10,995 bases of DNA from Anaerolineales bacterium. Its GTDB lineage: Bacteria > Chloroflexota > Anaerolineae > Anaerolineales > DRMV01. Numbering within the stretch: the first letter of the stretch is position 1; each line of letters begins with the position of its first letter. Under the pieces are notes generated by a model. The model did not search any database and was not told where the DNA came from. It worked only from the letters and a program-made list of their open reading frames with translations. Shown here in pieces: positions 1 through 10,990 of this stretch. Location of the stretch: the NCBI GenBank assembly GCA_027044735.1, contig JALUBW010000157.1:1-10995 (forward strand). Direction: 5' to 3'. A program made the translations under genes and the position numbers.

Positions 1-122
1 AAATCCCCAGCCCCATCCACCCGCCCGCGGGCTGCCGCTTTCACCCGCGCTGCCCCATCGCAGAGGAAATCTGCCGCCGCGAACCACCGCCCCTTCATCC
101 GGTTGAAGGTGAACCCGAGCAT
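1..122 (-). CDS. possible partial gene running off the left edge, unknown product
   Basis: Reading leftward from an ATG at 122-120, a frame of about 40 codons stays open to the window edge. It begins MLGFTFNRMKGRWFAAADF and its third codon positions are mostly G or C, as in the real genes here. I do not recognise the family. There is no convincing ribosome binding site, and the ATG lies exactly at the edge of the 22-bp repeat at 121-142, so the start may be accidental. The opposite strand is also open for a while here, which is common in GC-rich DNA. It could be a real gene start or part of a dispersed repeat. Confidence 0.25.
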   Translation of the reverse strand, partial: MLGFTFNRMKGRWFAAADFLCDGAARVKAAARGRVDGAGD

Positions 123-142
123 TTGGTGGCGTGCCACCTGCG
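121..142. repeat. 22-bp direct repeat, copy 1 (with internal hairpin)
   Basis: This 22-bp stretch recurs at 366-387 with one mismatch (21/22). Both copies contain GTGGCGTGCCAC, which is self-complementary apart from a two-base centre. The two copies lie in the same orientation on either side of the inverted-repeat element at 166-340, so the whole block looks like a composite repeat. Confidence 0.7.
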
Positions 143-165
143 GTGACTGGTTACCTGACACAAAA

Positions 166-1747: not shown

Positions 1748-2344
1748 ATGCAAAATCCGTTCACACCGACGCCGCAAATGCCGCCGCCGGGAGGTTTTTG
1801 GGTGCGCGCACTGGCGCGCATAATAGACATCGTGGTGGTCAACATAATCAACATGGCAGCCATACTTGCCGTGCTCTTTTTGGCGCGCCTGTGGGCGTTC
1901 TACAGCGGTATTTCGCCCTCGGTTGTGAACGCCGCCGCCAACGCTCGCGAAGCAGGCCTGTTTGCAAGCCTGCTCGGCGCAATTGCCTACCAAACCTTCC
2001 TTGAAGGAATTTACGGTGCCTCTATCGGCAAACTCCTTTTGCGGCTGCACGTATTCAAAACCGATGGAAGCCCGTGCACGCTGTGGTGTGCATTCGTGCG
2101 GTCGGTGGCATATTTGGTAGACTCGCTGTTTTTCGGCGCGGTTGCATTTTTGGCAATGAACTCATCACCTCTCCGCCAGCGCTTGGGAGACCGCTGGGCA
2201 GGCAGCGTGGTGGTGCGCTTCCCGGCGTTAGAAAGGCCAGCCGCCGACTGGGGAAAATTCCTGCTCGCCCTGTTCTGGGCAACCGTTTCATGCGCCGCTA
2301 TCAGCACACTCCCCATTTGGTGGAAACTAATTTTCGGTCTGTAG
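1748..2344 (+). CDS. RDD-family membrane protein
   Basis: This is a 198-residue integral membrane protein of the RDD family, whose molecular function is poorly defined (some members are linked to transport or ion exchange). After a proline-rich start, FWVRALARIIDIVVV (about residues 17-31) gives the family's Arg/Asp signature at the head of the first membrane segment. Three further hydrophobic segments lie near 70-92, 115-137 and 165-187. GASIGKLLLRLHVFKTDG (about 90-107) is the typical RDD cytoplasmic loop. AGAGGGAG at 1736-1743 places the start. The gene lies 34 bp after serS, so co-transcription is likely. Its last nine codons and stop (IWWKLIFGL then TAG) are repeated 68 bp downstream with only synonymous changes, which is odd. 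Confidence 0.85.
   Translation: MQNPFTPTPQMPPPGGFWVRALARIIDIVVVNIINMAAILAVLFLARLWAFYSGISPSVVNAAANAREAGLFASLLGAIAYQTFLEGIYGASIGKLLLRLHVFKTDGSPCTLWCAFVRSVAYLVDSLFFGAVAFLAMNSSPLRQRLGDRWAGSVVVRFPALERPAADWGKFLLALFWATVSCAAISTLPIWWKLIFGL
2315..2344 (+). repeat. 30-bp direct duplication of the RDD gene end, copy 1
   Basis: This is the last nine codons plus stop of the RDD gene. Copy 2 lies at 2383-2412 in the same orientation. The two differ at four of 30 positions (Leu CTA/CTG, Gly GGT/GGC, Leu CTG/TTG, stop TAG/TAA), and every difference is silent: both read IWWKLIFGL-stop. Confidence 0.85.
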
Positions 2345-2351
2345 CCCCCAT

Positions 2352-2379
2352 GTAGGGGCGACGCATGCGTCGCCCCTAC
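2352..2379. repeat. perfect 28-bp palindrome (REP-like)
   Basis: The sequence is GTAGGGGCGACGCA followed by its exact reverse complement, so it can form a 14-bp cruciform or an RNA hairpin. Palindromes of this GTAGGGGCGA..TCGCCCCTAC type are dispersed repeats in many bacterial genomes. A degraded relative occurs in this window at 10474-10497. It has no run of T after it, so it is not a classic terminator. It sits between the two copies of the RDD gene end. Confidence 0.85.
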
Positions 2380-2382
2380 CGA

Positions 2383-2412
2383 ATTTGGTGGAAACTGATT
2401 TTCGGCTTGTAA
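2383..2412 (+). repeat. 30-bp direct duplication of the RDD gene end, copy 2
   Basis: This second copy of the RDD C-terminal coding segment ends in TAA and no longer belongs to an open gene. It begins four bases after the palindrome and ends 26 bp before the next start codon. An ATG inside it (2385) is in frame with the downstream gene, which could mislead gene callers into adding 18 residues. Confidence 0.85.
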
Positions 2413-2438
2413 CGAAGCCAAGCCTCAAGGAGCACCCA

Positions 2439-3614
2439 ATGAGCGAAAGCCCAACCCGCTTGCCGTTGGAAGGGATACGCGTGGTGGATATGAGCCGCCT
2501 TTTGCCGGGGCCGTATCTCACCCAACTGTTAGCCGATTTCGGCGCGGAGGTGATAAAAGTGGAAACGCCGCGCCTCGGCGACTATGCCCGAATTGCACCT
2601 CCCAACACCGGCTTGGGCGGGCTTTTTCCGGCCGTGAATGGCGGCAAGAAGAGCCTTGCGGTCAACTACCGCCGCGCCGAAGGCCGAACAATCCTGCACA
2701 AACTTGTGGCGCAGGCCGATGTGTTTGTGGAAGGCTTCCGTCCGGGGGCGGTGAAGCGCTGGCAACTGGATTACGAAACTTTGAGTGGCATAAACCCCCG
2801 CTTGGTTTACCTCTCGCTTTCGGGTTATGGGCAATCAGGCCCCTACCGCGACCGCGCAGGCCACGACATCAACTACCAAGCAATCGGCGGCTCGCTGGGG
2901 CTGAACGGGCTGGCCGGCGGGCCTCCGGTGCCGCCTTCAATTCCGCTGGCGGATTTGGGCGGCGCCACCTTTGGCGCGATAGCCGTGCTGGCAAGCCTGC
3001 TGGCGCGCGAGCGCACCGGCAAAGGAGCGTATTTGGACATTGCCCTTATGGACGCCGTTGTGGCGTGGATGGCGCCGCTCGCAGGCGGGCAGTTTTTTGC
3101 AGAAGGGAAGCCGCCACGCCGCGGCAAAATGCCCCTCGCTGGCGGGCTGGCTTGCTTCAACGTGTACGAAACCGCCGACAGGCGCTATGTTTCACTTGCC
3201 GCCATTGAGCCGCAGTTTTGGGCTAACTTCTGCGAAACCGTCGGCCACCCAGAATGGCAAAACCGGCAGTGGGAACCGGAACTCTACCCCGAAATTGCCG
3301 CTGTCTTTCGCACCAAAACCCGCGCCGAGTGGGAAGAAATTTTCAGCAAGGTTGAAGCCTGTGTTGAGCCGGTGCTGGACTACGACGAGACCCTACAGCA
3401 CCCGCAAATACGGCACCGCGGCTTGGTGGAAACGGACGAAAACGGCAAACCGGTGGGGATTGCCTCGCCATTCCCGTTTTTGCCGCGGCAAAAGCGCCCA
3501 CCAGCACCGGCCTTGGGCGAGCACACAGCCGAAATTTTGCGCGGCTTGGGCTACTCAGAAGAAGAAATCGCCGCGCTCGGCGAGCGCGGCGTAATAGGAC
3601 TGCAGGAAGAATGA
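2439..3614 (+). CDS. CaiB/BaiF family III CoA transferase, possibly an alpha-methylacyl-CoA racemase
   Basis: Family III enzymes move CoA between carboxylic acids, or epimerise 2-methylacyl-CoA thioesters, in the cytoplasm, usually as interlocked dimers. The 391 residues show the typical N-terminus LEGIRVVDMSRLLPGPY (10-26), then LADFGAEVIKVE (31-42), and the family's conserved Asp in PLADLGG (D172). GHDINY (141-146) places a His 30 residues before that Asp, the same spacing as the His126/Asp156 pair of mycobacterial methylacyl-CoA racemase. An IEPQF motif like the racemase's catalytic-Glu segment also follows. This favours racemase-like chemistry, but substrate cannot be read from sequence. 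I chose the ATG at 2439 because CAAGGAG precedes it closely; the in-frame ATG at 2385 lies in a duplicated repeat and would add non-family residues. The gene ends 6 bp from a convergent gene. Confidence 0.88.
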   Translation: MSESPTRLPLEGIRVVDMSRLLPGPYLTQLLADFGAEVIKVETPRLGDYARIAPPNTGLGGLFPAVNGGKKSLAVNYRRAEGRTILHKLVAQADVFVEGFRPGAVKRWQLDYETLSGINPRLVYLSLSGYGQSGPYRDRAGHDINYQAIGGSLGLNGLAGGPPVPPSIPLADLGGATFGAIAVLASLLARERTGKGAYLDIALMDAVVAWMAPLAGGQFFAEGKPPRRGKMPLAGGLACFNVYETADRRYVSLAAIEPQFWANFCETVGHPEWQNRQWEPELYPEIAAVFRTKTRAEWEEIFSKVEACVEPVLDYDETLQHPQIRHRGLVETDENGKPVGIASPFPFLPRQKRPPAPALGEHTAEILRGLGYSEEEIAALGERGVIGLQEE

Positions 3615-4975: not shown

Positions 4976-5093
4976 GCCTTGCTTTGCCCTCACCCCTCAA
5001 GCCGCCTAACGGCGGCTTTCTCCCCTCTCCCAGTGGGAGAGGGGAGAAACGGCGAGCGCAGCGAGCCAAAGTGGGGTGAGGGCTGGATAAGGC
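4976..5093. repeat. long palindromic intergenic repeat
   Basis: The outer arms GCCTT (4976-4980) and CCCTCACCCC (4987-4996) face GGGGTGAGGG (5073-5082) and AAGGC (5089-5093). A 15-bp perfect stem is formed by TTTCTCCCCTCTCCC (5017-5031) and its complement at 5035-5049, and GCCGCC/GGCGGC (5001-5006 with 5011-5016) makes a smaller hairpin. Elements of this CCCTCACCCC / CTCCCCTCTCCC type are dispersed in many bacterial genomes and give spurious peptides containing SPLPLGEG. The rest of the 4806-5212 gap holds the promoter dyad and no gene that I can support. Confidence 0.75.
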
Positions 5094-10415: not shown

Positions 10416-10960
10416 GGTAACGCCAAGACGCCAAGAAACGCAAAGGACGCCAAGGTTAACGCAAAGGCGCAGAGTAGAGGCGAGGCATCGCCTCGCCCAG
10501 AGACGCAGAGAGAAACCACAGATTTCGCAGATTAGCACAGATTTTTCTGTGAAATCTGCGTAATATGCGGTTTCAGCCATCCAATCGGTGAAAATCTGTG
10601 TCAATCGGTGGGCGGTAACGCCAAGACGCCAAGAAATGCAAAGGACGCCAAGGTTAGCGCAAAGAGGTTAACGCCAAGGGCGCCAAGGGCGCAAAGGACG
10701 CCAAGGTCAACGCAAAGACGCAAAGGAGACAAAGAGCGCAAAGAAAAAATTTCTGTGTTCTCTGAAAGTTTCTGTGTTCTCGGTGGTTTTCTTTTTCAAT
10801 CGGTGCAAATCTGTGTCAATCGGTGGATGGTAACGCCAAGGGCACAAAGAAACGCAAAGGCGCAGAGGGGCGCAGAGGGGCGCAGAGACGCAGAGAGCAC
10901 AAAGAAAAATTCTGTGTTCTCTGTAAATTTCTGCGTTTTCTGTGTTTTTTCAATCAGTGG
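10416..10960. repeat. non-coding higher-order repeat tract
   Basis: Three degenerate units begin GGTAACGCCAAG and end CAATCGGTGG or CAATCAGTGG: about 10416-10611, 10614-10826 and 10828-10960. The first 51 bases of units 1 and 2 (10416-10466 and 10614-10664) match at 49 positions. The block CAATCGGTGNAAATCTGTGT plus CAATCGGTGG occurs at 10582-10611 and 10797-10826, 215 bp apart. Within units are short purine-rich words (CGCCAAG, CGCAAAG, CGCAGAG) and TTCTGTGTTCTCTG tracts. Such tracts are dispersed in many bacterial genomes, and their translations (rich in LRLCV or RAQR) have no homology to real proteins. I see no gene in 10412-10995. Confidence 0.85.
10474..10497. repeat. degraded REP-like palindrome inside the repeat tract
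   Basis: GTAGAGGCGAGGCATCGCC continues to CTCGCC and forms an 8-bp stem (10479-10486 with 10490-10497, three-base loop). Its left half resembles the perfect palindrome at 2352-2379 (GTAGGGGCGACGCA), so it is probably a decayed or truncated member of the same family, nested in the larger repeat. Confidence 0.55.
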
Positions 10961-10964
10961 ACAC

Positions 10965-10990
10965 AAAAAGCCGCCATAATGGCGGCTTTT
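10965..10990. terminator. bidirectional rho-independent terminator at the right edge
   Basis: AAAAGCCGCC (10966-10975), loop ATAAT, and GGCGGCTTTT (10981-10990) form a perfect 10-bp stem. Read leftward it is followed by TTTTTG, and read rightward it ends in TTTT before AGG, so it can act both ways. The leftward direction has the better T-run, which suggests a leftward gene just beyond the window. Confidence 0.75.

Follow-up and report, generated by a model that had tools for sequence, protein, structure and literature searches.

Duplicated gene ends around GTAG-type palindromes in Anaerolineales: an old structure at an RDD-family gene and its recurrence elsewhere in the family

The end of a gene for an RDD-family membrane protein is present on both sides of a perfect 28-bp palindrome in the stretch of DNA analysed here (10,995 nucleotides, hereafter the window), which is contig C157 of the Anaerolineales genome G000, an assembly of 1.3 Mb in 264 contigs that is 63% complete. 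The structure is genuine and of some age, and it recurs within the family. The palindrome is a GTAG-type repetitive extragenic palindrome (REP), and it is probable that an event preceding the split of the window species from its sister species left the final 31 bp of the RDD gene flanking it on either side. Related genomes show the same kind of layout, with a palindrome between copies of a gene end, at two further genes of the family, one of which has relatives with a single copy. Such a history would link the movement of REPs with the duplication of coding 3' ends. The features of the locus in the window are as follows.

1748 to 2344, plus strand: gene for an RDD-family membrane protein of 198 amino acids (ORF list; Pfam PF06271 RDD, 71 bits, cut-off 24.1)
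2315 to 2345, plus strand: copy 1 of the 31-bp direct repeat, in which the RDD gene end is translated up to its stop codon
2346 to 2382, no strand: inter-copy segment of 37 bp, consisting of 6 nt, the 28-bp palindrome and 3 nt, an arrangement that is the same in the sister genome G001
2352 to 2379, no strand: palindrome GTAGGGGCGACGCATGCGTCGCCCCTAC, perfect over 28 bases, a GTAG-tagged REP
2383 to 2413, plus strand: copy 2 of the 31-bp direct repeat, an untranslated remnant
2439 to 3614, plus strand: CoA-transferase family III gene, the 3' neighbour (Pfam PF02515, 355 bits)

An earlier reading of this DNA from its sequence only had described the RDD gene end as present twice, 68 bp apart, with the 28-bp palindrome between, and the two copies as differing at four bases, all of them silent. 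Both statements are confirmed on the window sequence, the second on the condition that copy 2 is taken to be the end of a gene. The coding part of copy 1 (2315-2344) is IWWKLIFGL-TAG, the end of the RDD open reading frame, while the corresponding part of copy 2 (2383-2412) ends in TAA and lies downstream of the RDD stop, outside the translation of that gene. The pair has four mismatches in 30 nt at a spacing of 68 bp, and one further base (C) agrees beyond these 30 nt, giving a repeat length of 31 bp. Within 2201-2520 the top-scoring ungapped direct repeat reaches 20, compared with a maximum of 11 over 100 dinucleotide-preserving shuffles. The CoA-transferase gene is likely to start at the ATG at 2439, which is preceded by AAGGAG, and with this start copy 2 would sit in the leader of that gene. 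No match to Rfam at gathering thresholds was obtained anywhere in the window, and no NCBIfam family matched the RDD protein.

Scanning for the 20-bp core of the palindrome returned at least 119 stretches, from many phyla. Among the matches listed, GTAG is found at an end in 118 of 138 distinct core occurrences (117 loci), nine of the 138 coming from a single array; the tag is on the left only in 45, on the right only in 34, at both ends in 39 and at neither in 20. The palindrome can be assigned from these comparisons to the GTAG-type REPs, of which 24 families have been published (PMC3733652). That report includes Chloroflexi among the groups in which GTAG repeats occur and describes the ends of the repeats as often providing the stop codon of flanking ORFs, and REPs as common 3' of coding regions; GTAGGGGC was not found in its main text. 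One pattern detected four copies of the palindrome in G000, and a slightly looser one detected 12 in G001 and 74 in G008 (0-2 with a reversed-pattern control). With the looser pattern at least one copy is present in 11 of 17 family genomes, most of them having a low copy number. The centre of the palindrome differs among the copies in G000, G001 and G008 (CGCATGCG, ACGGCCGT, CCGGCCGG); despite this variable centre the arms are mostly complementary, as if one arm corrected the other.

Two proteins of G000 are REP-associated tyrosine transposases (RAYTs), scoring 96.3 and 84.9 bits against the NF047646 cut-off of 80, and Y1 transposase domains are present in all five genomes tested. We infer that these G000 enzymes move this REP. 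The palindrome was not found beside the RAYT genes of G000 in the stretches examined around them (L176 and L178). A RAYT-like gene on contig C32 of G008 ends in the GTAG of a REP and is followed by REPs, and on contig C72 of G011 (L182) REP-like hairpins lie approximately 350 bp from another; the two proteins score 66.6 and 67.8 bits, both below the cut-off of 80.

The age of the duplication was studied by comparison with other genomes. Seven of the 61 genomes searched with the RDD protein match it, the window's own included; G001, of the same genus, is the only close one, with an orthologue that is 94% identical, and five are distant. On contig C15 of G001 both RDD end copies and the palindrome are found in the layout seen in the window, the palindrome having two changes, both in one arm. 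In the window copy 1 is ATTTGGTGGAAACTAATTTTCGGTCTGTAG and copy 2 is ATTTGGTGGAAACTGATTTTCGGCTTGTAA; the corresponding sequences of G001 are ATTTGGTGGAAATTAATTTTCGGCCTGTAG and A-TTGGTGGAAACTGATTTTCGGCCTGTAG, the latter with a 1-bp deletion. That the structure is an assembly artefact has next to no probability: G000 is fragmented into its 264 contigs, but the same structure bearing its own mutations in G001 in effect refutes this explanation.

Differences were polarised by taking the state in three of the four RDD copies (two each in the window and G001) as ancestral. At a single site (CTA/CTG) the two copies differ from each other in both species, and each of four further substitutions, as well as the deletion, is confined to one copy in one species. 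On this majority rule, three of the window's four differences postdate the species split and arose in its own lineage, and in the common ancestor of the window species and G001 the copies were at most one base apart. Each of the four substitutions that could be polarised is C-to-T or G-to-A. At copy 1, 2 of 30 positions have changed since the split, and at copy 2, 2 of 31 plus the indel, a divergence like that of the RDD gene (48 of 597). The duplication event would predate the split of the two species, probably not by long.

It had been suggested that silent-only differences imply that both copies once served as a functional gene end, either following a deletion within a tandem RDD duplication or through replacement of the end from a relative carrying the palindrome. 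This explanation is now quite unlikely. The silence of all four window differences is what it was built on, yet silence is to be expected under the mutation bias: 12 G or C positions in the repeat allow a C-to-T or G-to-A change, six of which are silent, and the chance that both substitutions in the window's copy 2 should be silent, as they are, is approximately 23% under this bias, approximately 10% with all transitions equal (10/30 silent) and approximately 4% with all substitutions equal (18/90 silent). Silence by itself is not decisive; the functional reading fails because of the shared age of the copies, nearly identical in the ancestor, and the deletion in copy 2 of G001. In addition, each matching genome has a single RDD match, with no sign of a tandem RDD gene, and the next closest protein to the RDD protein, P0002, has a different C-terminus, AIWVRLLGAL. 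The best account of the silent differences is mutation subsequent to an old duplication event. In the absence of an outgroup, silent-only differences are weak evidence for past function.

No empty site for the RDD structure was found, either with the RDD protein against the 61 genomes or with P0002 as the query against 18 family genomes, two of which (G000 and G001) match P0002. Similarly, no empty palindrome site was found within the genus when the flanks of G001 palindromes were compared with G000: the flanks of five loci (both flanks for three, the right flank for two) gave one match in G000, which also bears the palindrome in an altered form. The loci L005 and L160 share another palindrome.

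Duplicated coding ends around other palindromes, for which the sequence-only reading had proposed a search, are found in G008 and G016. At L171 (G008 contig C135, 1299-1720) the last 72 bp or more of an alpha-glucan phosphorylase gene (TIGR02094, 616.7 bits) are present three times with a period of 158 and REPs between; each full unit has two hairpins, and the second copy begins immediately after the CTAC of a REP. A search of seven genomes located this gene in six, all but G000, and it has a single end in G005, G011, G014, G017 and G001. At L248 (G016 contig C245), however, the phosphorylase end is present twice, 101 bp apart, with GGGGCTTGCGCCCC between, a small palindrome without a GTAG tag; both the palindrome and the spacing differ from those of G008. 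The G016 copies differ at 4 of 40 bases, and by our own reading all four changes in the second copy are G-to-A or C-to-T and two alter amino acids. Each of the extra copies in G008 is 5 of 40 bases off the first, again including amino-acid changes. These non-silent changes in duplicated ends, a result that the earlier reading had itself named as speaking against functional copies, mean that the extra phosphorylase copies behave as untranslated DNA. The single phosphorylase end of G011 is followed by hairpins, one with GTAG, and copy 1 of G016 with its palindrome resembles this end, which replacement of a gene end by transfer from a relative could also give. Extra ends have thus been acquired by the phosphorylase gene in G008 and in G016 at least, and both spacing and palindromes differ between the two. 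The expectation of empty sites was accordingly borne out in part, in that single-copy relatives exist for the phosphorylase, with none for RDD among the 61 genomes searched with its protein. As one-, two- and three-copy states of this locus occur in related genomes, the route of duplication is testable there.

The second of these genes is the transposase-like gene of L165 (G008 contig C32, 973-2300; NF047646, 66.6 bits, below the cut-off of 80), in which a REP lies inside the frame and the stop codon is the TAG of a REP. Further copies of the final 127 bp of this gene lie at 314 bp, with no mismatches, and at 560 bp, with five; REPs lie between the copies, and the locus is partly masked.

The level of association between REPs and repeated gene ends was also assessed. 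Among the collected loci, 11 of 192 REP-side frames (those of at least 150 aa ending within 150 bp of a REP) have a repeat of their last 30 bp no more than 500 bp downstream, as against 9 of 2722 others; most of the 11 are open frames located within REP arrays, and perhaps not genes, and the credible loci among them number three (RDD in the window and in L008 of G001, L165 and L171). With 60-bp flanks, which are too short for longer repeat units, 5 of 109 distinct palindromes score at least 13, compared with 13 of 1073 mismatched pairs; two of these five are the RDD locus and three come from G008, one of the three (L165) being a duplicated gene end. Of 263 GTAG hairpins, seven have a flank score of at least 18 and the same number at least 20, against 6 and 3 of 780 controls respectively, and the seven comprise three from one REP array (L108), two from RDD and two from one place in G008. 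Scanning the window together with 20 stretches of G001, 401,419 bp in all, gave 43 near direct-repeat pairs, of which two touch the stop of a frame of more than 120 aa: RDD and L191, a 339-aa frame with a CGCAGATT-type repeat. Most REPs of this kind lack a duplication in their 60-bp flanks.

This rarity is in keeping with a pair of unconnected events, in which a short tandem duplication of the gene end arose and a REP inserted separately between the copies, with hairpins and duplications simply both occurring at gene ends; REPs are indeed described as common downstream of coding regions (PMC3733652). Such a coincidence seems unlikely given that the CTAC of the REP lies 0 nt from the start of the next copy in L171 and 3 nt in the window, and that REP-side ends are repeated more often than others in the counts above, though many of the 11 are array frames. 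Mobilisation of the palindrome by a transposase making a fixed 31-bp target-site duplication would account for repeats that lie only 6 and 3 nt from the palindrome and for ancestral copies that were nearly identical. It is nevertheless very unlikely, and an element with a duplication of fixed length was rejected, as the repeat length varies by locus (31 bp, 72 bp or more, 127 bp) and most of the 109 palindromes have no repeat in their 60-bp flanks; moreover the IS200/IS605 transposases, relatives of the RAYTs, are said in PMC2817692 to make no larger target duplications. Off-target integration of a CRISPR spacer, with the 37 nt as an insert between 31-bp duplications, is extremely improbable. 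The 68-bp period resembles that of a repeat-spacer unit, and G001 contains a CRISPR-like array close to a Cas1 match, but this array has a period of 60-63 and an unrelated repeat, on which grounds a repeat-spacer unit was dropped; the insert is a REP, and a Cas1 search of G000 (63% complete) gave no match.

Several other repeats were noted in these sequences. A 27-nt repeat in the window (121-147 and 366-392, 89% identical) is the end of the upstream gene twice, the ends being HLVACHLR-TGA and FVACHLR-TAA by our own reading. Between them, at 147-365, lies one copy of a dispersed, inverted-end repeat that is distinct from the REP and has 36 matches in G000 and 66 in G001, partial matches included. 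The ends of four other copies resemble CTGGTTACCTGACACAAAA, and the repeats flanking these copies are approximately 8 bp long (again our own reading); the right end of the window element is gene-like where these copies have the terminal repeat. G001 has a single gene-end copy and no element at the site corresponding to 121-392. Degenerate CGCCAAGG / CGCAAAGG and CACAGA-type repeats at 10416-10960 of the window recur in loci of G001 and G008, and two more near-perfect palindromes of other kinds lie at 5017-5049 and 10966-10990. Palindromes of 37 bp beginning GCCCCCT, loosely resembling the window REP, occur in loci of G001 and G008. L073 (4130-5459) and L161 (G008 contig C93) have tandem arrays of approximately 131 bp and 165 bp, the units of which contain GTAGGGGCG-type palindromes. 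From approximately position 10691 of L236 (G001 contig C41), directly 3' of the Cas1 match, runs the CRISPR-like array, with at least 40 repeats of GTTGTCCCCACACGCGTGGG at a period of 60-63.

The way in which the duplicated-end structure forms is testable; the molecular route is one that we infer. When a REP is gained or moves beside a gene, the DNA just upstream would sometimes be copied twice, the far end of the REP being joined to a site 30-130 bp or so upstream, or synthesis restarting there. As the gene end, the first copy would stay under selection, while later copies, being untranslated, would drift. More generally, and only as a tentative possibility, small palindromic elements in this family may arrive at gene ends through a one-ended process in which the end of the gene is re-created beyond the element: one end of the element would be joined, or synthesis resumed, tens of bases upstream, keeping the host gene end working, and old copies would accumulate downstream as drifting remnants. 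This route fits RDD in the window and G001, the phosphorylase in G008 and G016 and the transposase-like gene in G008. As RDD and the G016 phosphorylase have one palindrome and L171 and L165 several, the mechanism may not be common to all.

A mobile-looking element between direct repeats is also what an insertion sequence or MITE with a target-site duplication would produce, but here the repeat is long, varies in length and is absent at most copies of the palindrome. The elements share with the GTAG-tagged REPs described by Di Nocera et al. (2013, PMC3733652) the GTAG tag, a GC-rich palindromic body and an occurrence both as dispersed single units and in clusters that include flanking DNA; in the descriptions given there the tag is unpaired and at one end, whereas 39 of the 138 core occurrences among the matches listed are tagged at both. 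L171 and L165, where REP and flank are repeated together, belong to the same type as the REPIN tandem clusters of Bertels and Rainey (2011, PMC3116915), described as REP units repeated together with their flanks. By contrast with those clusters, the window and G016 repeat the flank only, around a single palindrome, and in all the present cases the flank is the 3' end of a gene.
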